In this document: piece by piece, positions 14,967-63,465 of the stretch
How positions within the stretch are numbered: the stretch's first letter is position 1
Layout of the letters: every line of letters begins with the position of its first letter
DNA from: an uncultured Alphaproteobacteria bacterium
GTDB lineage: Bacteria; Pseudomonadota; Alphaproteobacteria; Rs-D84
DNA length: 64,000 nucleotides
NCBI GenBank assembly: GCA_944392565.1
Contig: CALXWX010000002.1
Location: 1 to 64,000 of the forward strand
Direction: 5' to 3'
Notes under the pieces: generated by a model
Databases searched by the model: none
Told to the model about the DNA's origin: nothing
Seen by the model: only the letters and a program-made list of their open reading frames with translations
Translations under genes and position numbers: made by a program

Positions 14967-15239
14967 ATGAACAAACAGCAATTGATTGAAGCAATCGCGA
15001 ACGAAGTTGAAGTAACCAAGGCAACTGCTGCGGCATGCTTGGATGCATTCATCAACACCGTTACAAAAGTTTTGAAAAAGAAGGGCGAAGTTCGCTTGGT
15101 TGGCTTTGGTACATTTACAACCGCAAAACGCAAGGCTACAACCGGTCGCAACCCACAGACGGGTGCTGCGATAAAGATTCCGGCATCAACCCAGCCGAAA
15201 TTCAAACCGGGCAAGGCATTAAAAGATGCGTTGAATTAA
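14967..15239 (+). CDS. hup: HU family DNA-binding protein
   Basis: Small nucleoid protein that binds and bends DNA as a dimer. The 90 residues (MNKQQLIEAIANEVEVTKATA...) include the DNA-arm stretch GRNPQTGAAIKIPAS and the RLVGFGTF core typical of HU. The start at 14967 follows AAGGAGAAACATT; upstream in-frame codons fall within the leader hairpin. The gene is monocistronic, with a long leader and a strong terminator. Confidence 0.97.
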   Translation: MNKQQLIEAIANEVEVTKATAAACLDAFINTVTKVLKKKGEVRLVGFGTFTTAKRKATTGRNPQTGAAIKIPASTQPKFKPGKALKDALN

Positions 15240-15240
15240 T

Positions 15241-15273
15241 AAAAAAATTCCGCCAATTGGCGGAATTTTTTTA
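15241..15273 (+). terminator. HU terminator
   Basis: A-rich start, stem AATTCCGCCAATTGGCGGAATT and a T run, immediately after the HU stop codon. Confidence 0.9.
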
Positions 15274-15400
15274 TAATAAGGATATATGCGCGCGCCGCCT
15301 GCAAGTAAAATCCGGGTTGTAAATCTGCGTTTGTGTTAAACGCGTTTTCTAAATTTTTCATTTTTACCATTATATGCCCCCAAAATTTTCTATTAAAAAA

Positions 15401-15546
15401 ACACCGTCGTGATTAATGACGGTTGGAGGTTAAGAGCTATTACAAGAAATAGTGTTGCTTATTCATTATATTCGCAACCCTCCAACCTGTGTCGGAGTTA
15501 TTCTTGTATCGAGGCTCTTACACCCCACATTGGTAATCATCCAATG
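15401..15546 (+). ncRNA. Pseudoknotted RNA element, copy 1
   Basis: Non-coding, structured and repeated at 40229-40391. Helices: ACCGTC/GACGGT (15403-15408, 15418-15423); A, GGTTGGAGG/CCTCCAACC (15421-15429, 15479-15487); B, TAAGAGC/GCTCTTA (15431-15437, 15514-15520); C, TACAAGAA/TTCTTGTA (15441-15448, 15501-15508); D, GTTGC/GCAAC (15454-15458, 15474-15478); E, CATTGG/CCAATG (15528-15533, 15541-15546). B and C cross A, making a pseudoknot. B, C, E and the 5' helix all differ in sequence in the other copy but remain paired. The strand is inferred. It lies between the HU terminator and the lemA promoter. I do not recognise the family. Confidence 0.75.
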
Positions 15547-15597
15547 CGCAACTATTATAACATTTATGTTTATATTTACCATAAAAAATTATGGGAC

Positions 15598-32124: not shown

Positions 32125-34407
32125 ATGCCAAATGAAAAAAATATTGTAAAGTTTAGCCTGGAAGGCATTGGGCCCTTTTCAAACAGACTTAGATTTGTAT
32201 TTGATGGTGGCGATAATAAAAGCATAAAGCTAGGTATTTATGCCACTAACGGCACAGGAAAAACATTTATTAGTAGGTGTTTTAGTGAATGTTCCACAAG
32301 GTTGACTGGAGGAACTTCTTATTATCCAAAGGAAAATCTTGTTAGCTTCGGAAAAACTGATGGCAAATTTGACCTTGAAGTCCAGATAAAAAACGGCGTT
32401 TCTTGTAAAATTGTAATGCCGATTAACAACATAAGTGCGTCCAATATTACATCAGGTGTGATTTTTCATGTATTTAATTCGGATTATATAAAACGACAAT
32501 TCATGGCAAGACATTGGGCTCCTGATGGTGATATTAACGGTGAGATAGTTGTAGGTGAAGAGAACGCAAAAGTTGCTACATTAATTGAAGAAGTTGCACA
32601 GAAGTACACGGAAAATGAAGAAATAAAATGTAGATTAGACGCCATAATTGGAGATAAAAAGCTAGGTCTTAAATCTAATTATGATGTGCGCGCTAATTCC
32701 AGTGCTTTTCAAGGCATAAACTTTGATAGCATTATCAAAGGTGTTGCGTTTCATAGCAAAAAAACTAAATTAGAATTAGTCCAAGAATACGATTCTTTAA
32801 AAGAATTTGCAAAAATTTCTGATGCTTTCCAAGATGTTTCATTTTTGTCTAAATTAGATGTTGAGATTGAACCGGTTTTGATAGATGCTGAATTAAATAA
32901 ATCCTATGCTAGAAAAGATATTCAAGAAAAATTTTTAGCAAAAATACAATCTTCTCAAGACTTTATACGAAAAGGCTTGACTTTAACCAAAGATAACAAA
33001 TGTCCTTATTGTGAGCAATCTTTAGACGGCGCAAAAGAAATTATTACGGCATATAATGATTTCTTTGATAAAACGCAAGTTGAAGTTTCAAACCAGTTGT
33101 CTAAACATAAATCTAAATTTGAGAAATTAGAATCTGACATAAAGTCTTTAATGATAAATTCTGCAAAAAGCACGAAACAATTTAACGACTTAAAAGGCTA
33201 TTTCCCATCAACAAAAGACCTTATTATTACTCCTATTGTTCTTCCAGACGGTTTATTAGATGCCATAACTCTTTGCAAAAATATAATCCAAACAAAAATA
33301 GAAGATATTTCGTGCGTAGGTATTAGCATTGCAAGTGCTTTCATGACTGTTCAACGAGAATTAAAAAATATCAATAATCAAGTTGTTAACATTAATACAG
33401 AAATAAAGAAAGTAAATGATGCCAAGGAGAGTTTAACATCAGAGTTAAAAACAATCAAAGATTCACTATGCGAAGCAGAGTTTAATGATATTATATCGGT
33501 TAATAGGAATGATATAAATAAATTTATAGAAAATCATGTAAGAATAAAAGCTGCCAACGAAGAAATACAAGAGCTTCAGACAAAGAAACCGAAGAAAGAT
33601 CTTGTTTATAAAGAGTTTTGTAATTTAATAAAGACATATTTTGGCGATAAATATACAATTGAATCAGATACGTTTAAATTAAAACTAAATACTCAAAGTT
33701 TAGATAATCCAGACATGGTTTTAAGTGATGGAGAAAAAAGTATAATAGCTTTTTGTTATTATTTGGCCGATATTCATTCAAAAATTAACAGCACTGCAGA
33801 TTATGACAAGTTATTTTTCGTAATAGATGATCCGATATCTAGTATGGACTTTACTTATGTTTATGAAACAGCCCAGGTGATTAAAAATCTTACCAAGATT
33901 ATAAATGGCGAAAAGCCAAAATATATCATACTTACTCATAATGCTGAATTTATGAATATATTATGTTCAAATAGTTTATTGTCTAAATCATACCATTTGA
34001 AAAAAGTTGATAATGAAATAATGCCATTAAAACATGCTTTCGTTGCACCGTATCAAAACCATTTAGAAGATATTTATAGTATTTCACAGGGGCGCACTAA
34101 ACCAACACACACCACATATAATTCAATAAGGCACATTTTGGAAAGTATAAAAAGTTTTGTTAATCCTGATTGTAAGGATTTGGACGAATTTATAGATACT
34201 CAAACCGTTAATGGTAAAAAATTGTTTGAATCAAATGGACATATGTATAGAGTTATTCATGATATGTCGCATGGAAGACCAAGAAACTATGAAGATATTA
34301 GCGAAGACAAGACCATAGACGGTTGTAAGGAATTAATAAAATACATTAATGAAAAATTTCCTGGACAAATTCCGCACATACAAAACAAGAAAGAACTAGA
34401 GAGTTGA
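32125..34407 (+). CDS. RloC/PrrC-like ATPase, candidate anticodon nuclease
   Basis: AAA_13-type ABC ATPase of 760 residues. Walker A is NGTGKT near 42-47, the signature is LSDGEKS, and Walker B lies in KLFFVIDDPISSMD. A coiled-coil middle carries a CPYC pair (Cys293, Cys296), as in the zinc hook of RloC. After the ATPase, Arg669-x3-Glu673 is followed by His at 706, 712 and 716 (HDMSHG). This spacing resembles the Arg/Glu/His nuclease triad of PrrC and RloC. A tRNA-cutting antiphage role is inferred; a plain AAA_13 protein remains possible. Confidence 0.75.
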   Translation: MPNEKNIVKFSLEGIGPFSNRLRFVFDGGDNKSIKLGIYATNGTGKTFISRCFSECSTRLTGGTSYYPKENLVSFGKTDGKFDLEVQIKNGVSCKIVMPINNISASNITSGVIFHVFNSDYIKRQFMARHWAPDGDINGEIVVGEENAKVATLIEEVAQKYTENEEIKCRLDAIIGDKKLGLKSNYDVRANSSAFQGINFDSIIKGVAFHSKKTKLELVQEYDSLKEFAKISDAFQDVSFLSKLDVEIEPVLIDAELNKSYARKDIQEKFLAKIQSSQDFIRKGLTLTKDNKCPYCEQSLDGAKEIITAYNDFFDKTQVEVSNQLSKHKSKFEKLESDIKSLMINSAKSTKQFNDLKGYFPSTKDLIITPIVLPDGLLDAITLCKNIIQTKIEDISCVGISIASAFMTVQRELKNINNQVVNINTEIKKVNDAKESLTSELKTIKDSLCEAEFNDIISVNRNDINKFIENHVRIKAANEEIQELQTKKPKKDLVYKEFCNLIKTYFGDKYTIESDTFKLKLNTQSLDNPDMVLSDGEKSIIAFCYYLADIHSKINSTADYDKLFFVIDDPISSMDFTYVYETAQVIKNLTKIINGEKPKYIILTHNAEFMNILCSNSLLSKSYHLKKVDNEIMPLKHAFVAPYQNHLEDIYSISQGRTKPTHTTYNSIRHILESIKSFVNPDCKDLDEFIDTQTVNGKKLFESNGHMYRVIHDMSHGRPRNYEDISEDKTIDGCKELIKYINEKFPGQIPHIQNKKELES

Positions 34408-34482
34408 TAGGTTCGTATTTATATCTGTGTCAGAGAATTACTTATTGTGATTGATTTCTCATATGCGGCGACAAGCACTGCT

Positions 34483-34653
34483 TTATCTATGTATGTGTAT
34501 AACTGCTGGTAGTGCTACCGTCACTGTAAGTTTTTTTATATTAAGGGTTTGCAATGAAATGTATGCTTTGCAAAAGGGCTCTTGATTAAAAGCCTGTTCC
34601 AATCCGTGTTCAGTTGACTTGCGGACGTACACTGCACATTTAATCACCGACAT
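34483..34653 (-). pseudogene. Truncated serine recombinase remnant
   Basis: A 56-codon frame starts MSVIKCAVYVRKSTEHGLEQ, identical over 20 residues to the recombinase at 29787-31379. It then continues after a small deletion with FCKAYISLQ before diverging and stopping. It overlaps the stop of the DUF2924 gene, the normal arrangement for DUF2924-recombinase pairs. The catalytic domain is lost. Confidence 0.8.
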
Positions 34654-35089
34654 TTACTTTCCTTTTATCCAGTTCAAAAAAGTGCGGTCCCGATGTCTTG
34701 GCACCACAAATATCAGACGCAATGGCGGATAATGAACGATACTGTTTCCCGTTATATAAAAACGTGTTGTCATAATTGACCAGGACCTTGTGTTCTATAT
34801 TCCGAAAGTGCCTGATGATAGTTGTGCCTGGCGCAATGTTGTATCTATGCTTTAATACGCGGTTTACACATTCAGCAGGGTTGTCTTTATACTTTCTGAT
34901 TTTCTTGATGAACTTTGGCTCAATACGCAGATTTAAGCGTTCGCATTGAATATAGTACCACAGTGGTCGCATTTGTCGTTTAAAAGGGTGGGGCGAATAT
35001 CGTGCCCATAAACGTGCACGCTCATCTTGTGATAGCGCTTTCAACTCTTCAAATGTCTTTGGCAAAATATCTTTAACTTTCCGTTGCAT
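34640..35089 (-). CDS. DUF2924 domain protein
   Basis: 149-residue protein of the DUF2924 family, found next to phage-type recombinases in alphaproteobacteria; function unknown. Starts MQRKVKDILPKTFEELKAL after an AAGGAA site. It has conserved WYYIQCERL, PGTTIIRHF and YRSLSAIASDICG.KTSGPHFF segments. Its last codons overlap the ATG of the truncated recombinase, so the pair was once translationally coupled. Confidence 0.82.
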   Translation of the reverse strand: MQRKVKDILPKTFEELKALSQDERARLWARYSPHPFKRQMRPLWYYIQCERLNLRIEPKFIKKIRKYKDNPAECVNRVLKHRYNIAPGTTIIRHFRNIEHKVLVNYDNTFLYNGKQYRSLSAIASDICGAKTSGPHFFELDKRKVNVGD

Positions 35090-35258
35090 TATTGTTTCCT
35101 TTTTGTCGCAGATGCTGCATAGCAATGTCAATCAACATACGTAGAATACGCAGGTTGTGATATAGGTCTTTGTTGGTAATTTCCGGCATACGCCCGAACG
35201 GATTGCCGGACGTACCACAGCGAAAACGATTATTCTTAGGCGGATTTTTGTATGGCAT
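35073..35258 (-). CDS. Small DUF5681-like phage protein
   Basis: 61 residues. The N-terminal half, YKNPPKNNRFRCGTSGNPFGR, matches the opening motif of DUF5681 proteins (compare the full member at 41858-42235). The start overlaps the upstream stop as TAATG, and its end overlaps the DUF2924 start, so it is part of one operon. Confidence 0.65.
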   Translation of the reverse strand: MPYKNPPKNNRFRCGTSGNPFGRMPEITNKDLYHNLRILRMLIDIAMQHLRQKGNNNATES

Positions 35259-35452
35259 TATTCAACCTCAAACCATTTCATAACGGTGACAAGCAGGTGT
35301 GGATAATCGGCATTGGTGGCCTCGGTCAAGAATTCGGACCATTTATCTTCTAAACCAGCTAAGACCAAGGCGTTTTTACACCGCGAAAGGATAGCGAAAG
35401 CATTACCATCACGATTGGTTAAATAAACCTTTATATCAGGATATTTAGGCAT
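35258..35452 (-). CDS. Small hypothetical phage protein
   Basis: 64 residues, MPKYPDIKVYLTNRDGNAFA..., no known domain. The start at 35452 is set by AAAGGAG six bases upstream; a longer frame to 35494 lacks a site. First gene of the operon leading through the DUF5681-like and DUF2924 genes to the broken recombinase. Box 2 lies about 40 nt upstream. Confidence 0.65.
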   Translation of the reverse strand: MPKYPDIKVYLTNRDGNAFAILSRCKNALVLAGLEDKWSEFLTEATNADYPHLLVTVMKWFEVE

Positions 35453-35491
35453 ATTGGACTCCTTTGTTTTTACTATGTTTTTAAGTTTGTC

Positions 35492-35523
35492 CAATTACTG
35501 CTTGGAAAGCGCCGAAAGTCAAG
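35492..35523 (-). promoter_or_regulatory. Element promoter box 2
   Basis: Minus strand TTGACTTTC, GCTT-TCC-AAGC dyad, AGTAATTG; near copy of box 1 at 31401-31432. Confidence 0.6.
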
Positions 35524-35736
35524 TTAAATAGATTTGTTTTTATACACCGCAGTCAGTTGCGTAATTTTGCGGTGAAGGCGACGTAATAGGATTCTGTCGC
35601 GACAGGGCAAGTAGCCACCATTACGGCGTCTGATACGATGCTCCATTTTATTCAAAATACGACAAGCACAATAATAAAGCATACTGCAGGTAGAAACTTT
35701 GTTTGGCTTGATATTTTCATAGGATTTATACTTCAT
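35524..35736 (-). CDS. Small basic hypothetical protein
   Basis: 70 residues, strongly basic (RIRRRNGGYLPCRDRILLRRLHRK). An AAAGGTG site precedes the ATG, and box 3 sits 26 nt upstream, which supports it as a real gene. Charge suggests nucleic-acid binding, for example a recombination directionality or regulatory factor, but no motif proves it. Confidence 0.5.
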   Translation of the reverse strand: MKYKSYENIKPNKVSTCSMLYYCACRILNKMEHRIRRRNGGYLPCRDRILLRRLHRKITQLTAVYKNKSI

Positions 35737-35761
35737 GCGACACCTTTTTAATCAGTTGCCG

Positions 35762-35792
35762 CATTTACGCTTACTATTGTCTTAAAGTCAAG
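35762..35792 (-). promoter_or_regulatory. Element promoter box 3
   Basis: Minus strand TTGACTTT, 11-12 nt, AAGC-GTAAATG. Related to boxes 1 and 2 in the TTGACTTT and AAGC parts but not in the dyad. Confidence 0.45.
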
Positions 35793-35915
35793 TTAGTATA
35801 TAGGCGCACATTTTCTTAGTAACTAAAAGCAAATAAAAACAAATATAAGTAAAAAATTACTACTGGATTTAGGTTTTGTGATTTTGTAATATCAAATTGT
35901 AAAGGAAAGGAAAAA

Positions 35916-36848
35916 GTGGCGCCACTACCGGTAAAATTAGCTGATTATATTGAGTGCAAACCTGTATTAAAATGGGCAGGTGGCAAGGGGCAACTATTAG
36001 ATAAAATCGAGGAAAAACTGCCATTAAAATTGAAAATGGGTGGGATAAAAAGATACATAGAGCCCTTTGTTGGTGGTGGGGCTGTGTTCTTTGATATTTA
36101 TAATAACTACAAAATACAAGAAGCCTTATTGTTTGATATCAATCCTGAGTTGGTTATTCTGTATAATGTTATCAAACATGATGTTGAAAAATTGATAGTT
36201 GAACTGACAAAAATAAGTACAGAGTACAATCATACAGAAGATAAAAAAGAATATTATTATTCAAGACGTGATGAATATAACGGCATGGACAAAACCGTCG
36301 ATGCAAATATTTATAATCAGCGGTTTATCAGACGTGCAGCGTTGACAATATTTTTAAACAGAACATGTTTTAACGGATTGTTTCGTGTTAATTCAAAAAA
36401 TATGTTTAATGTTCCGATGGGTAAGTACGCCAACCCAAGAATATTGGATTCAGAAAATTTGCGCAATGTATCAGACGCTTTACAGATTGCGACTATTATC
36501 CAAACAGATTTTAGTTCTGTTCAAGAGTATGTAAATAAAGACACATTTATCTATTACGATCCTCCATATCGCCCGATTAGAAAAACATCTTCGTTTAATT
36601 CTTATGCTGTTGGGGATTTTAATGATGATGAGCAAATTCGCCTTAAGAACGTTTTTGAAACGTGTGATAAAGCAGGTGCTTTACAAATGTTAAGTAATTC
36701 AGACCCAACAAATTATGTAAATGACACATTTTTTGATGATTTATACCAAGGCTATAATATAAATAGAATACTTGCAAAACGTCTTATAAATGCAAATGCA
36801 GATGGTCGTAGTGCTATTCGTGAGTTATTGATAACTAATTATGACTAA
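35916..36848 (+). CDS. dpnM: DpnM-like adenine methyltransferase (D12 class)
   Basis: N6-adenine methyltransferase expected to modify GATC. The 310 residues have the SAM motif LKWAGGKGQLLDKIE, the PFVGGGAVFFD segment and the catalytic DPPY (YYDPPYRPI). Starts at GTG 35916 after AAGGAAAGG. First gene of a three-gene operon with DpnA- and DpnII-like genes, overlapping the next by 8 nt. GATC specificity is inferred from the operon. Confidence 0.9.
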   Translation: MAPLPVKLADYIECKPVLKWAGGKGQLLDKIEEKLPLKLKMGGIKRYIEPFVGGGAVFFDIYNNYKIQEALLFDINPELVILYNVIKHDVEKLIVELTKISTEYNHTEDKKEYYYSRRDEYNGMDKTVDANIYNQRFIRRAALTIFLNRTCFNGLFRVNSKNMFNVPMGKYANPRILDSENLRNVSDALQIATIIQTDFSSVQEYVNKDTFIYYDPPYRPIRKTSSFNSYAVGDFNDDEQIRLKNVFETCDKAGALQMLSNSDPTNYVNDTFFDDLYQGYNINRILAKRLINANADGRSAIRELLITNYD

Positions 36849-37626
36849 TAAACCCTTCCGTCTTTATTGTGAAAATTGCTTAACGTGTCTGGAACAGATT
36901 CCAGAAAATACCTTTGATATGATTTTTGCGGATCCGCCTTATATGTTATCAAATGGGGGTATAACGTGCCAAAATGGTCAAGTTGTATCAGTTAATAAAG
37001 GCAAGTGGGACGAGTCGCACGGACTGATGAATGATTTTGAGTTTCATAAAAAGTGGCTTTCTGCATGCCGGCGAGTGTTAAAACCAAATGGCACAATTTG
37101 GATAAGTGGTACATACCACAGTATATACTCATGTGGCTTTGCAATGCAGTTGTTGGGCTTTCATATATTAAATGATGTGGCGTGGTATAAACCAAATGCC
37201 AGTCCAAATATGTCTTGTAGATACTTTACTGCCAGCCATGAAACACTTATTTGGGCAAGGAAAAGTAAGAACGCGAAACATATATTTAATTACGATGCAA
37301 TGAAATGTGGTGCCTTTCCCAAAGATATTTTGAAAAAGCCGGATTGCCAGATGCGCAGTGTTTGGTCTATTCCAACGCCGTCAAAATCAGAAAAAACTTT
37401 TGGCAGGCATCCTACACAAAAGCCATTGGACTTATTGGAAAGAATTATTTTATGTTGTACAAATCCAGGCGATTTAATATTAGACCCATTTATGGGCAGT
37501 GGGACAACTGGGGTTGCGGCATTAAAGTATGACAGAAAATTTGTCGGCATAGATCAGGAAGCGCAATTTGTTGAATTGGCAGAAAAAAGGCTGTATGATA
37601 TCCTTGAAAAGAAAGGAATAAAATGA
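36841..37626 (+). CDS. dpnA: DpnA-like DNA methyltransferase
   Basis: Second methyltransferase of the DpnII system; DpnA can also act on single-stranded DNA. The 261 residues show catalytic DPPYML near the N-terminus (FADPPYMLSNGG) and the SAM motif DPFMGSGTTGVAAL near the C-terminus, plus GRHPTQKPLDLLERII. This order is typical of the class. It overlaps both neighbours, so the operon is translationally coupled. Confidence 0.9.
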   Translation: MTNKPFRLYCENCLTCLEQIPENTFDMIFADPPYMLSNGGITCQNGQVVSVNKGKWDESHGLMNDFEFHKKWLSACRRVLKPNGTIWISGTYHSIYSCGFAMQLLGFHILNDVAWYKPNASPNMSCRYFTASHETLIWARKSKNAKHIFNYDAMKCGAFPKDILKKPDCQMRSVWSIPTPSKSEKTFGRHPTQKPLDLLERIILCCTNPGDLILDPFMGSGTTGVAALKYDRKFVGIDQEAQFVELAEKRLYDILEKKGIK

Positions 37627-38519
37627 AGTATTCTAAAATTTTTGATGAACTTTTGGGTTGCAAGAACGAAGATGACGTTTTTAGTTATTTGATTTCAAGC
37701 CTAAAAGAAAGTATAAAATCTTGGGATTATTTTGTTAACTGGTCAAAAGTTATCAATAATTATCACGAAGCAGAGATTGCACTAAACTTATTGAATACTC
37801 TAATTGGTAAGGCGGATGTTGAAAAAGCAGCAAAAGATTTATTAAAGGAATATCCAAAAATTATAGGTGTTATACCGGCGCTTTTGGCTGATAGAGAAAA
37901 GAAAATCAAACTTGTTTCAGATATAAAAACTTTTGAACTTAAATGCTTTGACTTTTCAAAGCCTATGTCTGCAGAGGATGGTGTCCTATTTATGAAAGCA
38001 AGTGGCTTCCTTGATTTAGTATCTGACCGTACAATTAAATCTATACCAGATTATTTTCTTGGGGTAGAAGTTGGGCTTGATTCAAATGGGCGCAAGAACC
38101 GCAGTGGCACATCAATGGAAAACTTGATGGAATATTTTATAAAAGATATTTGTGAGCGTAATGGCTATGAATATATCGCACAAGCGACCGCAGATAAAAT
38201 TTATAAAAAATGGGGTAAAAATATTACTGTGAATAAATCATCCAAGCGTGTTGATTTTGCTATAAATACCCCTAATAAACTATATCTGATAGAAACAAAT
38301 TTCTATGGCGGTGGCGGATCAAAATTAAAATCAACCGCAGGCGAATATGCAGATATTTATCATCAGTGGACAAAAGACGGGCACCAGTTTATATGGATAA
38401 CGGATGGTTTAGGTTGGCAGAAAACTCAGCGACCGTTAAGCGATACTTTTGATACAACAGATTATATCCTTAACATCGACATGGTGCAAAAAGGCGTGTT
38501 GGAAAACCTGTTAAAATAA
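37623..38519 (+). CDS. dpnB: DpnII-type restriction endonuclease
   Basis: Type II endonuclease expected to cut unmodified GATC. The 298 residues contain the conserved GLDSNGRKNRSGTSME segment, NKSSKRVDFAINTPNKLYLIETNFYGGGG (PD-(D/E)XK core with D and ExN) and SKLKSTAGEY, as in DpnII. It starts 4 nt inside the end of dpnA. With the two methyltransferases it makes a complete restriction-modification operon. Confidence 0.9.
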   Translation: MKYSKIFDELLGCKNEDDVFSYLISSLKESIKSWDYFVNWSKVINNYHEAEIALNLLNTLIGKADVEKAAKDLLKEYPKIIGVIPALLADREKKIKLVSDIKTFELKCFDFSKPMSAEDGVLFMKASGFLDLVSDRTIKSIPDYFLGVEVGLDSNGRKNRSGTSMENLMEYFIKDICERNGYEYIAQATADKIYKKWGKNITVNKSSKRVDFAINTPNKLYLIETNFYGGGGSKLKSTAGEYADIYHQWTKDGHQFIWITDGLGWQKTQRPLSDTFDTTDYILNIDMVQKGVLENLLK

Positions 38520-38574
38520 ACGAAGAGAATCCAATGGTAGAAATTCATAAAAAATCAATACTTCTTGTAATTAG

Positions 38575-38603
38575 TTGATAATTGGTACGATTTGTATTAT
38601 ATA
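38575..38603 (+). promoter_or_regulatory. Promoter of repeat-protein gene
   Basis: TTGATA (38575-38580), 17 nt, TATATA (38598-38603), 7 nt before ATG 38611; no Shine-Dalgarno. Confidence 0.65.
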
Positions 38604-38610
38604 TAACAGT

Positions 38611-39048
38611 ATGAAAAAACTAAGTTTTTTATTTGCTATGCTTTGGCTGCCAATGTCATGCTTGGCGGGTGTCAGCTGTAATACTATTGGTGATACTGTT
38701 TACTGTTCTGGACGCGATTCTGATGGGAACTATGTCAGTACTACAACAAATAAAATTGGCAATACGACGTATACCACTGGTCGTATTGGTGATGAAAGGG
38801 TAAATACTAGCTCTAATAGAATAGGCGGAACGGTTTATACCAGCGGCTCTATTGGTGATAGGCGTGTAAACGTCAGTGAAAACAGAATTGGAAATACTGT
38901 TTATCATTCGGGCAGTTTTGGTGACAGCCGTGTTAATACAACTACGAATAGAATAGGAACGACAACATATACAACTGGAAGTATTGGTAATCGCCGTGTA
39001 TCATCCAGCAAAAATAAAATCGGTGGCACAACTTATTATAACTTTTAA
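38611..39048 (+). CDS. Secreted 22-residue repeat protein
   Basis: 145 residues. The signal peptide MKKLSFLFAMLWLPMSCLA is followed by about five 22-residue repeats of the form N(R/K)IG.T.Y..G..GD.RV..., the last one partial. The regular Gly, Tyr and Val spacing suggests a beta-solenoid or beta-hairpin stack. Two Cys lie in the first repeat. No family recognised. It starts without a leader and is convergent with the nuclease gene, with only 3 nt between them. Confidence 0.7.
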   Translation: MKKLSFLFAMLWLPMSCLAGVSCNTIGDTVYCSGRDSDGNYVSTTTNKIGNTTYTTGRIGDERVNTSSNRIGGTVYTSGSIGDRRVNVSENRIGNTVYHSGSFGDSRVNTTTNRIGTTTYTTGSIGNRRVSSSKNKIGGTTYYNF

Positions 39049-39051
39049 GTT

Positions 39052-40203
39052 TTATACAATTTCCTTAAACTTAGAAAGTGCTGATATAAATTCTGTGCGT
39101 TTGGTATTTATAACCGAGAAATCCAAACGGTAGAACTTGTTCATAACTTTGTATGGATTTTGACCTTTTATTAAAAAGTCTTTCAGGCTTTCTAATAAAT
39201 ATGACAGGGCAGGTTTTGCCTTTGGGCCTTTTAATGTTGCCTGCAATTTTGATGGTGTAAACCATATACTGTCTGTTGATATTTGAAATAAAGACACTAC
39301 GCCTGGAATGCCGATAGAAACCTGTTTTGTCGCAGTTTTTGTGCTGAAGCCTGCCGAATGCAATGCGTCAAAAAATGCAGATAACATATCTGGGGTAATC
39401 TGTGTGTTCTTGTTTGTAAAGTCTGAAATAAAGTCTTCCATAGAGATTTGAAAGTACTTGTATTCTGATTCTGTGGCTTGCTGTTGCTTTGTTTCAGTCG
39501 CGATAATTTTTGAATCTTTCAGAGTAATTACTGTCCGTTCTAGTATATTAGTGGAAGTTGTTAAACGTGGAACAACCAAGAATTTGTCTGCCATTTTATA
39601 GGTTGTAAGTTCGCAAAGAGCCAATCTGTGATGCATATCTATTGGGCTGTTGATAAATTCTGCTATTTTATCTGCACTTGGTCTGATTGCGTCACCGACA
39701 ATCATCATAAGAAAGTCGGCTTGGCGGATAGATTCATTTACTTTTTCAATAAAGTTTTCTTTACTGGTGATCTCTGGGTACTTACGTTTAATGTCTGAGT
39801 ATAAATCTTTCCCTTTGTAAATTGACTCTAACTTGTCCCAATTCCACTGTTTTGTGTCGTGCAGGCTTACTGCATAATCCAAAACTTGTCCAATTACTTG
39901 GCGACTGGATTCTGGGTTGCGGTATAGTTTAGTTTCAACAATTACTAAATTACCATTTGTTGATACGTACAGAAGATCAATATGACCTTTGCCTGTTTTG
40001 GAGGATTCCGTGGCGACTTCACTGGCAATATAAAAAAGTTGCGAATATTTAGAATCTATTTCTGCCGTTGGTAGTATATCTGGGCAGGTCGGCAGCAATT
40101 TTTGTAGCCAAGCCTCGTTAGGCATTTTGACCAGTTCTGGTGAAACGGTTTTACCAGATTTATCTACGATAATCGGTCTTTGTACAATTCTTGCTGTGGA
40201 CAT
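39052..40203 (-). CDS. PD-(D/E)XK-type nuclease domain protein
   Basis: 383 residues; specific family not recognised. An N-terminal module holds a PD-(D/E)XK-like core, GHIDLLYVSTNGNLVIVETKL, with Asp and the Glu-Thr-Lys triad, then QVIGQVLDYA as in restriction-like nucleases. The C-terminal half is helical with no catalytic motif. The start at 40203 follows GGAGGAG. Its place beside a restriction system suggests defence or a phage nuclease; catalysis is inferred. Confidence 0.7.
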   Translation of the reverse strand: MSTARIVQRPIIVDKSGKTVSPELVKMPNEAWLQKLLPTCPDILPTAEIDSKYSQLFYIASEVATESSKTGKGHIDLLYVSTNGNLVIVETKLYRNPESSRQVIGQVLDYAVSLHDTKQWNWDKLESIYKGKDLYSDIKRKYPEITSKENFIEKVNESIRQADFLMMIVGDAIRPSADKIAEFINSPIDMHHRLALCELTTYKMADKFLVVPRLTTSTNILERTVITLKDSKIIATETKQQQATESEYKYFQISMEDFISDFTNKNTQITPDMLSAFFDALHSAGFSTKTATKQVSIGIPGVVSLFQISTDSIWFTPSKLQATLKGPKAKPALSYLLESLKDFLIKGQNPYKVMNKFYRLDFSVINTKRTEFISALSKFKEIV

Positions 40204-40228
40204 TTTCTCCTCCGCTGGGTTATAAAAT

Positions 40229-40391
40229 AACCACCAAAAAATCTGGTGGTTGGAGGTTAGTAACAATTTACGAGAATTGTGTTGCTTATTCAGTATATTC
40301 ACAACCCTCCAACCAAAAGGTTGGATGGTTTTATGTCGCTTCGGACACTCGTAAACGGGTTACTACACCCCAATATCAGAACTCCTGATAT
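40229..40391 (+). ncRNA. Pseudoknotted RNA element, copy 2
   Basis: Repeat of the element at 15401-15546. Helices: AACCACCA/TGGTGGTT (40229-40236, 40244-40251); A, GGTTGGAGG/CCTCCAACC (40248-40256, 40306-40314); B, TAGTAAC/GTTACTA (40258-40264, 40359-40365); C, TTTACGAG/CTCGTAAA (40267-40274, 40348-40355); E, ATATCAG/CTGATAT (40373-40379, 40385-40391). Core GTTGCTTATTCA.TATATTC and ACACCCC (40365-40371) are conserved. An extra GGTTGG (40319-40324) could compete for the CCAACC strand of A. It lies between the nuclease gene and terL. Confidence 0.75.
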
Positions 40392-40428
40392 CTCTTTCAG
40401 TTTATCACGGATGTGTGTTTTTATCAAC

Positions 40429-41877
40429 TTATAAAACGAACACTTGTGGGGCAGGTTTTGTCGCAATTGGTGCCGCAACGTGAAGACACTGTGAAAAAGC
40501 ATCGCACTGGTCTTTGAATGTCGTGTTCGGGAAAGTAAACAATTCACTGGAAAAATCCTGCCACCAATTTGGTGCAACAGACGGAAATAATATTAGCCCA
40601 TTTTCAATATAACTTGATACGCTTTCCAGGCGTGTTATTTTATCTGTGTCTGGTTTGACTAGTGTTACTTTCATATCTCTGTGTTCATACTGTAATTGCT
40701 GTGCCAAAGACGGGCCCGATGATGCATCTTCTATTAGTGTAGTGATAAGCGCTGATGGGTATTTATTTTTGTATTCTTCGTGCAGTTCGGAAATTTTTCT
40801 GCAAAGGGCTGGAAATTCCAATCGTTCACGATAAATTTGCAATAAATATAATTTTTGATTTTTAATACCTATAACGCTACATGCTGAAAAAGCATTATTT
40901 GCACTGACTTTGCTGGCAGTGTCCCAAGATAAAAATATTCTGTCCATCTTGTCAGGTAATTCGTTGTAGTAGTGTATCCAATCCTTATGAATAAGGTTGC
41001 CGACCAATGGGGCGGGGCGTTGTTGGTATTGACAGGCAAACGCTAGTTCGCCCATAGTCTTGCGAAGTTCCAGAATTTCTTGCTCACCATCACGGTCGGG
41101 ATGTAATAAATCGCCTGGTGCACGAGTTATGCATAAAGTTTTATTTGAAAAAGGGCGTTTAATTTCCCAATGTTCGTCTTCTTCGGCAACTACTGGCAGG
41201 CGCAAAAGCTTAAAGCCCATATCCGAATTTAATAAAAAGCCCGTCATATCGTTTTCGTGCAGTCTTTGCATTATCAGCAATATACAACCAAGCTTTTTAT
41301 CATTCAGACGTGAACAAAGTGTGGTCTGAAACCACTGGTTTACTTTTTCACGAATTATGTCGGATGCGGCATCCGTTGGCTTTATTGGGTCGTCTATGAC
41401 TATAAAATCTGCCCCACGCCCTGTAAGCACTCCCCCAACAGAGGTTGAAAGTCTGCCACCGTTTTTTGTGGTTTCAAAATCTGCAACAGAACGTCTGGAT
41501 TTACTGATACGTGTGCCAGGGAACATATCTTTATACCAATCGGCTTCCATTACATTTCTGCAATCATTTGCGAACTTTAAGGACAAGTCATCAGAATAAC
41601 TGACGCATATAACTGTTGCCTTTGGGTTGTGCCCCAGAATAAAAGCGGGCAGGGCAACGGAACAGATAATGGACTTCATATATCTTGGGGGAATATTTAT
41701 TATCATCCGTCTGTTGTTGCCTGCCAACATATCTGATATTTCGGAACATATTAACTTTATGTGCCAATTATCAAGATATGTTGCGTTCGGCGATACTGTC
41801 TCAAAGACTTTCTGCACAAAGGCGTGAAAGTCTGTTCGTAAGATTGCGTTTAAGACTTTAATTGTTGGCGTTTTCAT
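40429..41877 (-). CDS. terL: Phage terminase large subunit
   Basis: DNA-packaging motor with ATPase and nuclease domains. The 482 residues show a P-loop-like IINIPPRYMKS, Walker B FIVIDDP, the LLIMQRLHENDMTGFLL coupling stretch, and nuclease acidic residues in FLSWDTASK and LIEDASSGPSLAQQL. Full length for the family. It starts inside the DUF5681 gene (20-nt overlap). No other packaging or capsid gene is in the window. Confidence 0.93.
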   Translation of the reverse strand: MKTPTIKVLNAILRTDFHAFVQKVFETVSPNATYLDNWHIKLICSEISDMLAGNNRRMIINIPPRYMKSIICSVALPAFILGHNPKATVICVSYSDDLSLKFANDCRNVMEADWYKDMFPGTRISKSRRSVADFETTKNGGRLSTSVGGVLTGRGADFIVIDDPIKPTDAASDIIREKVNQWFQTTLCSRLNDKKLGCILLIMQRLHENDMTGFLLNSDMGFKLLRLPVVAEEDEHWEIKRPFSNKTLCITRAPGDLLHPDRDGEQEILELRKTMGELAFACQYQQRPAPLVGNLIHKDWIHYYNELPDKMDRIFLSWDTASKVSANNAFSACSVIGIKNQKLYLLQIYRERLEFPALCRKISELHEEYKNKYPSALITTLIEDASSGPSLAQQLQYEHRDMKVTLVKPDTDKITRLESVSSYIENGLILFPSVAPNWWQDFSSELFTFPNTTFKDQCDAFSQCLHVAAPIATKPAPQVFVL

Positions 41878-42235
41878 CCAAGAAATCTTTTAATATTTCC
41901 ATATCCGTTTTACTAAATGCACGGGTTGTTCTTTCGGCGTCTGCATTGTAAAGCGCTTCCATTTTGGGTAACAGGGTTTGAATTGCCTTGTTGTCACCTT
42001 GGGCTGCTTTGTTGGTTAGTTGCAGTAAAATAGCGTCGCTTTTTGTAGCTTCTACGGTTTCACCTGCGTTGGTAATTGAAATTTTACCGTCCAGAAAATA
42101 CTTTAATTTGGTGTTAAAGTTTTTGTGACCCTTTGGACGACCTTTGCGATTGCCAGAGACGCCTTTTTTGAAGCGCGTTTCAATGGGTGGGTTTTGATAG
42201 CCGACTTTGTAGTTTTTATTGTTGTTGAATTCCAT
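41858..42235 (-). CDS. DUF5681 protein (possible small terminase)
   Basis: 125 residues. Family signature YQNPPIETRFKKGVSGNRKGRPKG at the N-terminus, then a helical body. It lies between the ParB-methyltransferase and terL and overlaps both by 20 nt, the place usually held by a small terminase subunit, so that role is inferred from position. Confidence 0.75.
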   Translation of the reverse strand: MEFNNNKNYKVGYQNPPIETRFKKGVSGNRKGRPKGHKNFNTKLKYFLDGKISITNAGETVEATKSDAILLQLTNKAAQGDNKAIQTLLPKMEALYNADAERTTRAFSKTDMEILKDFLDENANN

Positions 42236-43526
42236 CTTTTTTCTCCTGTAATAATTCGTTATATGTTTTGCCGTTTGATATATTTACAGCATCTATTCCG
42301 AACAGGTTTTGAAATCTGCGAATAGTGGTGTCTATGTATTTGGGCTCCAGCTCTATACCCAGACAGGTACGCTCTATCTGTTCACAGGCGATAAGCGTGC
42401 TGCCCGAGCCCAGAAAGCTGTCTAATACAGTGTCGTGCAGGTTTGTGACGTCTAAAATTGCATCGCGTATCATTTCTACGGGCTTTACCGTCGGGTGCAT
42501 TTTCAGGTCATCTCTGTGCACACCAAAAGAATTTACACCAGCATAATTCCAGACGTTTGTTCGGTACCTGCCGTACTTGCCCAGTTGAACATTGTTGACG
42601 TTTGGTGCGTCGCCATTTTTATATACAAAGCATAGTTCATGTTGACTGCGATAAAGACTGCCCATACCACCAGACGTCTTTACCCAAACGCACAGGTTTA
42701 TAAAATCGCCAAATACGGAATCTAAGGCGGTCTTGATTTCTGTTATATGGCGCCAATCCATAAAGTTATATTGCATTGCGCCATCATTAGAATACTTTTG
42801 GCACAGGGTAAAGTTATCTGTTAAAAACTTGGTAAATTCTTCGGGTGACATTTCCCCAGATGCCATGGGAAATTCATCGTGGCGTATGTTTCCACAACCA
42901 CAAACATGTCCCGAAATCTTAACGTTGTAAGGCGGGTCTTGGATGACCATATCGGCGCGTTTGTCGGACAGTAGACGGGCGAAACTCTCTTCGTCCAGAC
43001 TGTTGGCGCATATGATTTTATGACGCCCCAGTTGCCATATGTCGCCAGGTTGCGTTATGATTTCGCATTCGGGAACAAATTCAATTTTATTCAGTTTTTT
43101 GTCTGGGGTTGGCGTTGTGTCTGTTATCAGGTTGTTGATTTCAATTTGCTCAAACCCTGTGATTGTTATGTCGTCCACATAAATCTGTTCCAGATCCGAT
43201 ATTTCCAGCACCAACAGTTCTTTGTTCCAGCCACCGTTTTCTGAAATTTTATTGTCTGCCAGGCGGTAAACACGCTTTTGCGTTTCGTCCAGGTGCGTTA
43301 AACGAATAACAGGTACAGTATCCATTTGCAACAGTTGTGCTGCCAGATATCTGCCGTGACCAGCAATTATTTCGTTGTTCTCATCTATCAGAATAGGGTT
43401 GTTAAAACCGAATTTTTTAATAGAATCTGCGATTTGATGCACCTGCTTTTGCGGGTGGTCTTTTGGGTTGTTTTGGTATGTTTTTAGTGAATTTAAGTCA
43501 ACATATGTAATTTTAATATCTGCCAT
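42216..43526 (-). CDS. ParB-like/DNA methyltransferase fusion
   Basis: 436 residues. An N-terminal ParB/sulfiredoxin-like domain (about 1-110, with IAGHGRYLAAQLL) is fused to a DNA methyltransferase of the N6-adenine/N4-cytosine class. The latter has catalytic DPPYNVKISGH near the middle and SAM motif DSFLGSGSTLIACEQ near the C-terminus. This fusion is common in prophages. The start follows GGAGGTCCAA. First gene of a three-gene block with DUF5681 and terL. Confidence 0.9.
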   Translation of the reverse strand: MADIKITYVDLNSLKTYQNNPKDHPQKQVHQIADSIKKFGFNNPILIDENNEIIAGHGRYLAAQLLQMDTVPVIRLTHLDETQKRVYRLADNKISENGGWNKELLVLEISDLEQIYVDDITITGFEQIEINNLITDTTPTPDKKLNKIEFVPECEIITQPGDIWQLGRHKIICANSLDEESFARLLSDKRADMVIQDPPYNVKISGHVCGCGNIRHDEFPMASGEMSPEEFTKFLTDNFTLCQKYSNDGAMQYNFMDWRHITEIKTALDSVFGDFINLCVWVKTSGGMGSLYRSQHELCFVYKNGDAPNVNNVQLGKYGRYRTNVWNYAGVNSFGVHRDDLKMHPTVKPVEMIRDAILDVTNLHDTVLDSFLGSGSTLIACEQIERTCLGIELEPKYIDTTIRRFQNLFGIDAVNISNGKTYNELLQEKKDGIQQQ

Positions 43527-43564
43527 TTGGACCTCCTTTTTTTGGAGTATGTAACAGAGGGGGC

Positions 43565-43595
43565 AAAAAAGTAGGCGTCTGCTAGCAGACGCCTA
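43565..43595 (-). terminator. Terminator after KAP operon
   Basis: Perfect 24-bp palindrome centred on GCTAGC (43572-43595), followed on the minus strand by six T. Its first bases include the stop codon of the 251-residue gene. Confidence 0.85.
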
Positions 43596-44348
43596 TTTCC
43601 AAATTTCAGAATTCTTTGGCGGAAGCCATTTTCTAACGGTTTCAGCAGGATTGTCTGTTTTAAGAATGTTCATAAGGCTATCTTGAAACGTAGCATATTT
43701 GTCAGAACTTAGTATTTCTGTGATAAGTTTACTATTGGTTATTGTGGGGCGTTTGGTTTTAATTTTTTTAGCGATTTTTATAAACTCTTTTTTCAACGCG
43801 GTTTCTGATTGGTGGGTTGTGTTGCCGGATTTTTTGCGCATTTCTTTTGCAATCATAAGCATAGATGCAGAATATTCTACAAATGCCGAGTTCCAGTTTT
43901 CAAAAACAGTTTGCTTTTCTGAGGCGTTCAACTTGGCGGCGGATTCAAATTTTGTTATATATCCAGCAACTTGATATAGCATAAGGCTTAATGCGTTTGC
44001 TGCGCCAATTGTCCACCACTCCCGACGTGATAACTTTTTGACTTTATCGTTTACTTTGAATATAAATTCACCATCTGGATTGTGCGGCAATTTGTCAAAG
44101 TTGTGCATTTGTTGTTTAAGATCAGCGATGTGTTTCGGCAAGGTTGCATTATTTGCGCGGACAAGTTGTTTGAAGTCTGCAATTGCATTTTTGGTTAAAG
44201 GCAGTATTTGGTTGTAAAACCTGTCAAAACTAAGCGGATACGGTGCCCGTTTTGCAACCTTAGAAACATTATACGTGTTAATTATTGCAATCCTGTTGGC
44301 AATAGTTTGTTCTTCTGTCCCCGCAATAAAATCCAAACACTTTTTCAT
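43593..44348 (-). CDS. Hypothetical protein downstream of KAP NTPase
   Basis: 251 residues, unrecognised, predicted largely helical and basic, with no membrane segment. Start at 44348 (MKKCLDFIAGTEEQT) follows AAAGGTTATGAT. The C-terminal part (KTKRPTITNSKLITEILSS) could form a helix-turn-helix-like fold. It follows the KAP gene by 56 nt and ends in a strong terminator, so it closes that operon and may be its partner or effector. Confidence 0.65.
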   Translation of the reverse strand: MKKCLDFIAGTEEQTIANRIAIINTYNVSKVAKRAPYPLSFDRFYNQILPLTKNAIADFKQLVRANNATLPKHIADLKQQMHNFDKLPHNPDGEFIFKVNDKVKKLSRREWWTIGAANALSLMLYQVAGYITKFESAAKLNASEKQTVFENWNSAFVEYSASMLMIAKEMRKKSGNTTHQSETALKKEFIKIAKKIKTKRPTITNSKLITEILSSDKYATFQDSLMNILKTDNPAETVRKWLPPKNSEIWK

Positions 44349-44404
44349 ATCATAACCTTTTGAAATTAAGGTAAAATGAAAACCGCGGTAAATCAAGTTA
44401 TATG

Positions 44405-46006
44405 TTATTTAAAGCTAGAAAGAAAGTCCATTTTATCAAAGTAACTTTGTCTGAATTTTTCTAGATCAAAATTAGAGGCTGTGTATATATCAGGTGGTAT
44501 CTCTTTCCATCTAGAGTCACGTTTAGAGTGCGTTATTATTGCTATCTTGCCATCGTTTTTAATCATTGATTGAATACCTGTTTCTTTGTCTTGTCTTTCA
44601 ATAATCCATTTCAATGGTTGGTTCAGATCTGTTGTAACAAAAAATCTATCAACATCATCATGTATTATAATCTGTGTATTGTTTGGACCAGATGGAGTTG
44701 TTGAAAACTCAAGTATTGGTGGAATTTTTGGAATTATTTTACGATTTAACGGACCAAACATTTTGTCTGCTTCGTCAGCATAAACATATCTAGCAATTGA
44801 ATAATCGTTTGTCGATTTATTGTAAATATGATTTAGAACCCCTCTATAAGAAGCATGATTTTGTAGGCTAGTTGTTCGCATAACATTATATATTTTTAAG
44901 TCGAATTCGTGTAAACACACTAAAAGAACTGCTAAATCTGGCGAAAATAATTCGTCGCTGTTTAAAATGTTTCTGGTAAACAGTACTAATCTATCAAAGA
45001 CTTGCTCCATTTGGCGTAAGGAGAATTTAAACCAGATACTGTATGCAGCAAAATACTTTTTAATAATTTTTTCTGTGGTTTGATTTTTATTAAACTCTTG
45101 CTCAGCTTTTAAAGTAGGATCTCCTTGAAAATGACGTAATTCTAAGTTTTTTATAAAAGTTTTGAATACTAAACTTTTTCCTTTTTCTTCAATTTGTTGA
45201 ATTAAATTTGCTAATCCAGATTTTTCGTACAAAAAATTGGTGAAACTTACTTTGTCTGGGGCAGGTAGTATAAAAGAGTTGTTTATAAACTTTCTTTTAT
45301 ATCCGTCAAAATTTGTTGTTCCGAATAATTTTTCTACGGAGTTTTTTAATTGGGTTTCGTCAAGCGCCAGAATAAAGACAAAACCAGGTATGTCAAAAAA
45401 ATGTTTTAATGTTTCAAGCGTTTTAACAGCAAAATCCGGTTTACATCTATCTAGTTCATCAATTATTATAATAACTGGTGTATTTAGCTTTTTTGTCCAA
45501 GATGTCAAAAATTTTTTAGTTTCTGATAGCTGTTTTTCGTATTCTAGATAGGAATTATAAATATGTGTTTTTTGGGGCTTAAATTGTTTATATAAACTAA
45601 CGATCTTGTTTATGTCAAAACCTTTATACTTTAGCCATTGTCTGAGTGCCCAACTGATAAAATTTCCGCCAATTTTTAAGGTGTTTGTTGCCCAAATCTT
45701 AATTTTATGGTGTTCTATATAGGTCTCTTGTAATTTTTTTAATATGGGAATAAGTGGATTTTCATAAAAATCCATTGTCCATATATTTATCATCGAGACA
45801 GGGATTTTATCATGTTTTAAAACTTCGTATAGCTTCGTACAGAAAAAAGTTTTTCCAACCCCAAATTCTGCAGATACGGAATATACTTTAGAAGATGCGG
45901 TTGCATTAAAATCTTCGTGCTCAATTAAGTGTGCGAAATCAATAACATTTGACTTAATATTAAGTCTATCGTCTGTAAAGATATCTTGATATTCAACTTG
46001 TGCCAT
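44405..46006 (-). CDS. KAP family P-loop NTPase
   Basis: 533 residues. Walker A SAEFGVGKT at about 45-53, Walker B VIIIIDELDRCKPDFA around 157-172, and the typical LKHFFDIPGFVFILALD following it mark the KAP family, named for Kidins220/ARMS and phage-exclusion protein PifA. No clear membrane insertion is visible, unlike eukaryotic members. Start follows AGGTAAAA. It is 2 nt from the pyrophosphatase-like gene. Antiphage function is inferred from the family and location. Confidence 0.85.
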   Translation of the reverse strand: MAQVEYQDIFTDDRLNIKSNVIDFAHLIEHEDFNATASSKVYSVSAEFGVGKTFFCTKLYEVLKHDKIPVSMINIWTMDFYENPLIPILKKLQETYIEHHKIKIWATNTLKIGGNFISWALRQWLKYKGFDINKIVSLYKQFKPQKTHIYNSYLEYEKQLSETKKFLTSWTKKLNTPVIIIIDELDRCKPDFAVKTLETLKHFFDIPGFVFILALDETQLKNSVEKLFGTTNFDGYKRKFINNSFILPAPDKVSFTNFLYEKSGLANLIQQIEEKGKSLVFKTFIKNLELRHFQGDPTLKAEQEFNKNQTTEKIIKKYFAAYSIWFKFSLRQMEQVFDRLVLFTRNILNSDELFSPDLAVLLVCLHEFDLKIYNVMRTTSLQNHASYRGVLNHIYNKSTNDYSIARYVYADEADKMFGPLNRKIIPKIPPILEFSTTPSGPNNTQIIIHDDVDRFFVTTDLNQPLKWIIERQDKETGIQSMIKNDGKIAIITHSKRDSRWKEIPPDIYTASNFDLEKFRQSYFDKMDFLSSFK

Positions 46007-58492: not shown

Positions 58493-58514
58493 AACTTCCT
58501 CTCTTTTATATTTC

Positions 58515-58544
58515 ATTCTAGAAAAAAAGCCATATGTCGTGCAA
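58515..58544 (-). promoter_or_regulatory. Promoter of giant Cys-rich gene
   Basis: TTGCAC (58539-58544), 18 nt, TAGAAT (58515-58520) on the minus strand; layout matches the promoter of the 801-residue paralogue. Confidence 0.55.
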
Positions 58545-63072: not shown

Positions 63073-63104
63073 ATTTTCAGCCTTTTTAGTTATAAATTAA
63101 TTGT

Positions 63105-63423
63105 GGCTGGGTTTCTGTTGCCGGGTACCCAGCGAACCCCGCAATATGCTGAAACGGATATAATCAACAATTGCCAATTATACCCAACCTTGTATTAGGC
63201 AGCCATTGCAAGGCGAACATTGTCGTTCGCAGCGATTCTATCGCCATTCAGTTTTTATTTGGTTTTTAACGACACCATGTCGGATTCAACCGATTTGCCT
63301 TTACTTCGCCTGTCGAAACTATGTCAGCCCCATATTTTTTATTGGTGGAGCTGTGGGGTACCGCCCCCCAGTCCAAAACGACTATTCCGCAACGGATTCA
63401 GAATCATCATCGCAAATGCGACA
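63105..63423 (-). ncRNA. ssrA: Permuted two-piece tmRNA (ssrA)
   Basis: Ribosome-rescue RNA. On the minus strand the acceptor part comes first and ends CAGCTCCACCA (63343-63353). After a short spacer, the coding part begins GGGGCTGACATAG (from 63331). GGGGCTG and CAGCTCC pair with the G3-U identity wobble. The tag frame at 63195-63233 reads AANDNVRLAMAA then stop. Promoter TTGCAT (63452-63457), 16 nt, TATAAT (63430-63435). The 3' end is approximate. The permuted order is an alphaproteobacterial trait. Confidence 0.92.
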
Positions 63424-63465
63424 TAAATAATTATAATATTTATGGTGGCAAATGCAAGTTTTTAA

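Follow-up and report, generated by a model that had tools for sequence, protein, structure and literature searches.

The window analysed here, a stretch of 64,000 nucleotides, comes from an alphaproteobacterium of the Candidatus Enterousia type, order Rs-D84, a group with genomes of about 1 Mb (PMC12306168); the relatives that bear a name are Candidatus Enterousia and "Alphaproteobacteria" MAGs from gut, rumen and termites. On the minus strand the window carries a permuted two-piece tmRNA of the kind usual in Alphaproteobacteria (63104-63461), and a very long open reading frame of 2117 amino acids (52163-58516). An element occurring at 15401-15546 and again at 40229-40391 had been predicted to be a selected RNA structure, and both copies, with every helix quoted for them, were found where they had been placed. 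The strand had been misread: the RNA is read from the minus strand, because the promoter, the T-run and the genes all point that way, and the plus strand was rejected as the RNA on these grounds. In the aligned copies read in this direction, a −10 box precedes P1, a G+C-rich hairpin with a T-run follows seg3, and a start codon comes next. The hairpin taken to be 5' (ACCGTC/GACGGT with its T-run) is thus the terminator at the 3' end of the RNA, and the supposed 3' hairpin (CATTGG/CCAATG) is P1, at its 5' end.

The common order in the sense direction is −10 box, P1, P2 with the guide target B5' in its loop, the guide target C5', seg1, seg2, P5, P6 holding guide C3', guide B3', seg3, and an intrinsic terminator overlapping seg3, after which a ribosome-binding site and start codon follow. 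In copy 1 (all features on the minus strand) the −10 box TATAAT lies at 15554-15559, and P1 (GCATTGG..CCAATGT, 15527-15547), which forms the RNA 5' end, covaries in the family, with 98.8% of cells paired. P2 (GGGG..CCTC, 15511-15526; 97.2% of cells paired) bears B5' (TAAGAGC, 15514-15520), the partner of B3' (GCTCTTA, 15431-15437), while C5' (TACAAGAA, 15501-15508) is matched by C3' (TTCTTGTA, 15441-15448) within the loop of P6 (15437-15452; 100% of cells paired). Between these strands, seg2 (GGTTGGAGG, 15479-15487) can pair either with seg1 (CTCCGAC, 15491-15497) or with seg3 (CCTCCAACC, 15421-15429), the latter pairing being helix A; the last 3 nt of seg3 are shared with the stem of the terminator (ACCGTC..GACGGT-GTTTTTTT, 15395-15423). 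The assignment of seg1, seg2, both guides and the terminator draws on the family statistics given below as well as on sequence. P5 (15454-15478) has the loop GAATATAxTGAATAA (15459-15473), related to that of the Rfam family RF02221; it is nearly invariant in all elements, and part of it is common to phage forms.

Downstream of copy 1 lies a 44-aa open reading frame (15236-15370, minus strand), which comparison with its orthologue identifies as the remnant of an XRE/HTH gene with the first 27 aa intact. The intact 81-aa orthologue, behind the element L176, has HTH matches, and L176 carries guides identical to those of copy 1. The truncated gene overlaps the terminator region of an HU-like gene, and copy 1 may have nothing useful left under its control.

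Copy 2, likewise on the minus strand and assigned by sequence, begins with P1 (ATATCAG..CTGATAT, 40373-40391) and P2 (40356-40371), with B5' TAGTAAC at 40359-40365. C5' (TTTACGAG, 40348-40355) is followed by an optional hairpin P3 (TGTC..GACA, 40334-40347), by seg1 (TCCAACC, 40319-40325), 4 nt upstream of seg2, and by seg2 itself (GGTTGGAGG, 40306-40314). P5 occupies 40281-40305; C3' (CTCGTAAA, 40267-40274) lies in the P6 loop, and B3' (GTTACTA, 40258-40264), seg3 (CCTCCAACC, 40248-40256) and the terminator (AACCACCA..TGGTGGTT-ATTTT, 40224-40251) complete the element. The sequence GGAGGAG precedes the ATG at 40203 of a 383-aa gene (39052-40203), a phage-defence candidate resembling PDC-S11 (PADLOC, E=2.2e-12). 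This gene sits in a defence island (32125-46006) that also contains AAA_13/PDC-S06, a DpnII restriction-modification system with two methylases and the endonuclease, a terminase-like fragment, a ParB-methylase and a KAP NTPase/PDC-S20 gene.

The element is far more frequent than the two copies first recognised. BLAST of copy 1 against its own genome led to nine places, and a covariance model (R1) spanning the 95 positions from seg1 to the terminator, a search that the original prediction had proposed, found 16 copies in the 0.94-Mb genome (E<1e-9) and others in related genomes. R1 matched 178 of the 201 genomes of order Rs-D84, with up to 48 copies per genome, and four of 299 genomes drawn from the phylum. 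Two of these four are of the same genus, and the matches in the other two, the only ones outside the order, are RF02221 loci; the model did not bear out pattern matches in Paenibacillus and Motiliproteus (L090, L098). Because there is a second Enterousia subtype (L307-L321, L323-L326), with seg2 GGTCGGGG.., a longer P5 and equal guides, upstream targets and terminator, the R1 counts are lower limits. Elements of this subtype are located upstream of secreted proteins and lipoproteins. Tandem elements a few hundred bases apart were seen at L042, L089, L104, L130, L141, L142 and L153, sometimes with equal guides, as at L042.

In most of 185 cases a start codon lies 23-45 nt past the terminator. 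Small XRE/HTH proteins account for 54 of the 185 downstream genes; many others encode signal-peptide proteins, one an ABC exporter, and further types also occur. It had been suggested that the element might be mobile, similar to omega-RNA or HEARO. Multiplication by transposition, whether of a mobile element or of its guide RNA (HEARO/omega-RNA, IS605 or integron attC-like), would be in keeping with the many copies, some of them near-identical (L270/L271, L295/L296) or in tandem. The copies, however, occupy a fixed place between promoter and gene start in the 5' leaders of many unrelated genes and travel together with their downstream gene families; no transposase and no adjacent IscB/TnpB partner was found, the downstream genes belonging to other families, and the Rfam HEARO and IS605 models gave no match, which leaves this reading hardly credible. 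The core-site spacing does not fit attC, and the topology differs from that of an HDV-like fold; nothing in the analysis speaks for the ribozyme that had also been considered, and of the original options it is the regulatory RNA that the results support.

Architecture statistics were drawn from 192 distinct elements. An intrinsic terminator follows seg3 in 179 of them, as opposed to 4 of 192 in shuffles, and overlaps seg3 by 3-4 nt; for 162 of the 179, the stem sets in after the first 5-6 nt of seg3. Exact TATAAT at a fixed spacing is present in 78 of 151 elements (11 in shuffles), and a seg1:seg2 helix of at least 6 bp in 93% (32% shuffled). At fixed positions helix B is fully paired (7/7) in 147 of 154 elements, whereas permuted strands average 5.2 of 7, and the C guide matches over at least 6 positions in 86% of elements and in 24% after permutation. 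Selection on RNA structure was borne out in a larger alignment of 36 sequences, where 26 pairs were changed on both sides, compared with 17.2 in shuffles (none of 500 as high), and the covariation score was 0.312 compared with 0.158. P1, B, P5, the terminator and A each have more than 96% of cells paired, with changes on both sides; G-U pairs make up 0.8% in B, 13.1% in P1 and 5.8% in P5. The register of helix C varies, so that only 47% of its cells are paired when the alignment is held fixed. C or B is broken in a few copies (L014, L263, L264, L269).

Helices B and C had been described as crossing helix A. This is true on paper, yet the minimum-energy folds of both window copies are free of pseudoknots: at −52.1 and −62.1 kcal/mol they contain B, C, seg1:seg2 and the terminator, while folds containing A reach about −33 to −35 kcal/mol and, in matched comparisons, the nested terminator state is better by about 10-17 kcal/mol, all by ViennaRNA, which ignores pseudoknots and by which alternation and a true pseudoknot of A with B/C look the same. 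The intrinsic terminator and the upstream helix A are mutually exclusive, as in a terminator attenuator, because both use the end of seg3. The pairing of seg2 with each of its partners left its mark on the sequences: of 26 elements with the variant seg2 GTCAGGAGG, 24 have seg1 CTCCTGA and 19 have seg3 CCTCCTGAC. Both seg1:seg2 and seg2:seg3 covary, a bistable three-strand covariation. Since helix A competes with seg1:seg2 and the terminator, the simplest account of the crossing helices is a switch with alternative states, and we consider it highly likely that the element is a terminator leader with alternative helices. The energetic preference for the terminator fold in the window copies suggests that the default state of the leader is probably to terminate.

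No family had been assignable at first. In Rfam searches, whether cut off at the gathering score or run with lax E-values, matches to other families fell on a neighbouring terminator or on tRNAs, and only a weak signal of RF02221 (sRNA-Xcc1) survived. The RF02221 model scored 37.8 bits on an element, below its gathering score of 53, with a best score of 37.5 bits in the element's own genome and 50.3 bits in nine related genomes, where it matched many R1 elements as well as the second subtype. In the reverse direction, the R1 model landed on RF02221 loci in two genomes, G304 (E=9.4e-10) and G489 (E=0.008), so that each model finds the loci of the other, as homology would have it. The likeness extends to structure: helix A encloses P6 and a P5 with the AATAYA/GAATAAG loop characteristic of RF02221 (GAATAYA..GAATAAG in the shared form; GAATACA..GGAATAAG in RF02221 members, related to the Enterousia P5 loop), the B3' strand comes next, and the P2-loop and C5' targets lie upstream in both. 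Judged from these sequence comparisons, the Enterousia family is almost certainly a distant homologue of RF02221 by common ancestry. It differs in that type 1 elements have no apical P5 stem and no second target at the ribosome-binding site, and instead possess seg1 and a terminator overlapping seg3.

The RF02221 loci themselves proved informative. In other Proteobacteria an upstream hairpin loop matches B3' of the RF02221 core and an upstream strand matches C3'; downstream, both guide-matching sequences often flank the Shine-Dalgarno sequence, as in L226 (CCGAAA-GGAG-ACGTAAG-CCC-ATG). At the loci L333-L411 and L198-L227 the RNA belongs to a prophage and precedes an antirepressor gene, and complements of its guides lie both upstream and at the ribosome-binding site. 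In IMG/VR the core motif was found in 79 contigs, and among 42 distinct copies a level that about 2% of controls exceed is surpassed by the upstream guide matches of 19 and by the downstream ones of 18; all ten proteins sampled downstream of the phage copies contained KilA-N, AntA/AntB, Rha, ORF6N or Bro-N. SymE, too, occurs downstream of RF02221 loci, and has been reported for Xanthomonas cassettes (PMC12444791).

This arrangement is that of the C4 RNA of phages P1 and P7 (RF01695, clan CL00128; L228-L237), which carries two guides inside an outer stem, one in a hairpin loop and one in a strand, and faces an upstream target hairpin and a second target at the downstream ribosome-binding site. 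The logic and topology being alike, RF02221 in prophages is very probably C4-type. Rfam keeps RF02221 outside the C4 clan, and no link between sRNA-Xcc1 and C4 was found in the papers searched, of which the only one with both terms names them in a list of annotated RNAs. The C4 RNA stops translation of the antirepressor gene ant at its ribosome-binding site and sets the heteroimmunity of P1 and P7 (PMC12197685). The Enterousia elements, in contrast, end in a terminator, lack the second target, and have no sequence-level match to C4; the RF01695 model gave no match in the two genomes searched, G000 and G143. In 37 of 44 Enterousia elements the guides are complementary to the upstream target pair at or above the 95th percentile of controls, whereas a second target at the downstream ribosome-binding site rises above control in 5 of 44, as opposed to 14 of 27 RF02221 loci and 18 of 42 in the prophage set. 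In Enterousia a terminator stands in the place of that second target and has replaced it. Viral contigs contain intermediate forms (L327, L328, L329); L329, which precedes a Rha-like protein (a likeness judged by eye), combines an Enterousia-type P5 loop with both target pairs and therefore links the two groups.

Other leader RNAs share parts of this logic. In the immunity system of phage P4, leader RNA is processed to the guide CI, which pairs with the leader it comes from and thereby terminates transcription early; P4 uses other structures, the logic of a leader-derived guide being alike. We know of no dual-guide domain in IsrK of Gifsy-1. Upstream of an antirepressor-like gene, this short terminated RNA targets in trans the readthrough transcript of its own locus; it differs from the switch proposed here in working on translation (PMC4825925). 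Published work on sRNA-Xcc1 suggests a further possibility, that of a stand-alone sRNA merely situated upstream of genes and acting in trans on other mRNAs. The element does have a promoter and terminator of its own, and in Xanthomonas a transcript of 88 nt was detected for RF02221 (PMC2996969), yet the short distance to the start codon in most cases, together with a genome search in which neither window copy had an exact guide complement anywhere else, renders a stand-alone sRNA very improbable.

The guides vary in a manner resembling barcodes. Among 68 elements sampled from six genomes (G000, G019, G023, G112, G140, G172) there are 66 distinct combinations of B and C. In pairs from the same genome that diverge by only 4-10% outside the guides, 36-39% of guide sites differ, the background being 56%, and while clear orthologues have guides in common, paralogues differ. 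L295 and L296, from one genome, are near-identical save in helix C, where GAGAC/GTCTC is replaced by the compensated GACGT/ACGTC. Guides that diverge between paralogues and are shared by orthologues fit specificity elements, similar to heteroimmune c4 RNAs, better than the drift of cis helices.

B and C could nonetheless be purely cis helices of a metabolite riboswitch, in which B, C, A and P5 would form the aptamer, the P5 loop would lie in the pocket, and the ligand would pick A or the terminator. Terminator riboswitches are likewise 5' leaders that alternate between antiterminator and terminator, and the terminator platform, the mutually exclusive helices, the conserved AU-rich loop and the multiplicity of leader copies in each genome all accord with this reading; what sets the Enterousia elements apart is guide helices specific to each copy and antisense relatives in phages. 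A ligand pocket has no need for B and C to be swapped wholesale between close paralogues and kept constant in orthologues, the downstream genes (XRE, secreted proteins, ABC exporter, defence candidate) have no common pathway, and the phage homologues are antisense RNAs with a match at the ribosome-binding site; we regard a riboswitch as unlikely. A protein could also choose the state, with a host or XRE-family protein bound to the P5 loop or P1 and the guides being purely structural. The frequency of small XRE/HTH genes downstream and the P5 loop, the best conserved of the unpaired parts, speak for such an attenuator, which is nevertheless quite improbable, as most downstream genes are not XRE genes and the barcode-like guides would be left unexplained.

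We favour, with a probability of roughly 0.6, a terminator-switch leader with its own promoter, descended from a C4-type prophage antisense RNA and set by a trans RNA of the same barcode. The leader, transcribed from its own promoter, would control whether RNA polymerase reaches the gene just downstream. In the off state, B3' and C3' would pair back onto B5' and C5', and seg1 would hold seg2, leaving seg3 free so that the terminator forms. In the on state, helix A would occupy the 3-4 nt common to seg3 and the terminator stem, which would let polymerase read on; the RNA would then display P5, P6 and the guides as a mature sRNA-Xcc1 or C4 RNA does. A released core would then pair through B3'/C3' in trans with B5'/C5' of a nascent leader of equal barcode, and so each copy would answer its own barcode alone. 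We infer that the RNA is processed and acts in trans, and also the sign of this action, namely that occupancy of B5'/C5' should promote readthrough. With no second target downstream in the Enterousia elements, the case for trans action is built on ancestry and barcode divergence, and addressing in trans by matching guides has, in our view, a little less than an even chance of operating in Enterousia.

Annotations of sRNA-Xcc1 in Xanthomonas and Xylella describe a trans-acting sRNA linked to virulence. The results give RF02221 a concrete and testable role as a C4-type control RNA of prophage antirepressors, and they show that in a reduced genome an RNA of this type has become a large chromosomal family of terminator switches. 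More tentatively, and with the odds somewhat against it, the family may represent a phage immunity RNA that was domesticated and multiplied chromosome-wide, with leaders individually addressable by their own two-part barcodes as dozens of orthogonal on/off switches. Were addressing in trans to hold, the family would constitute a natural library of orthogonal RNA switches, and a nearly minimal gut symbiont would have acquired RNA-set switches for its secreted proteins and small regulators.
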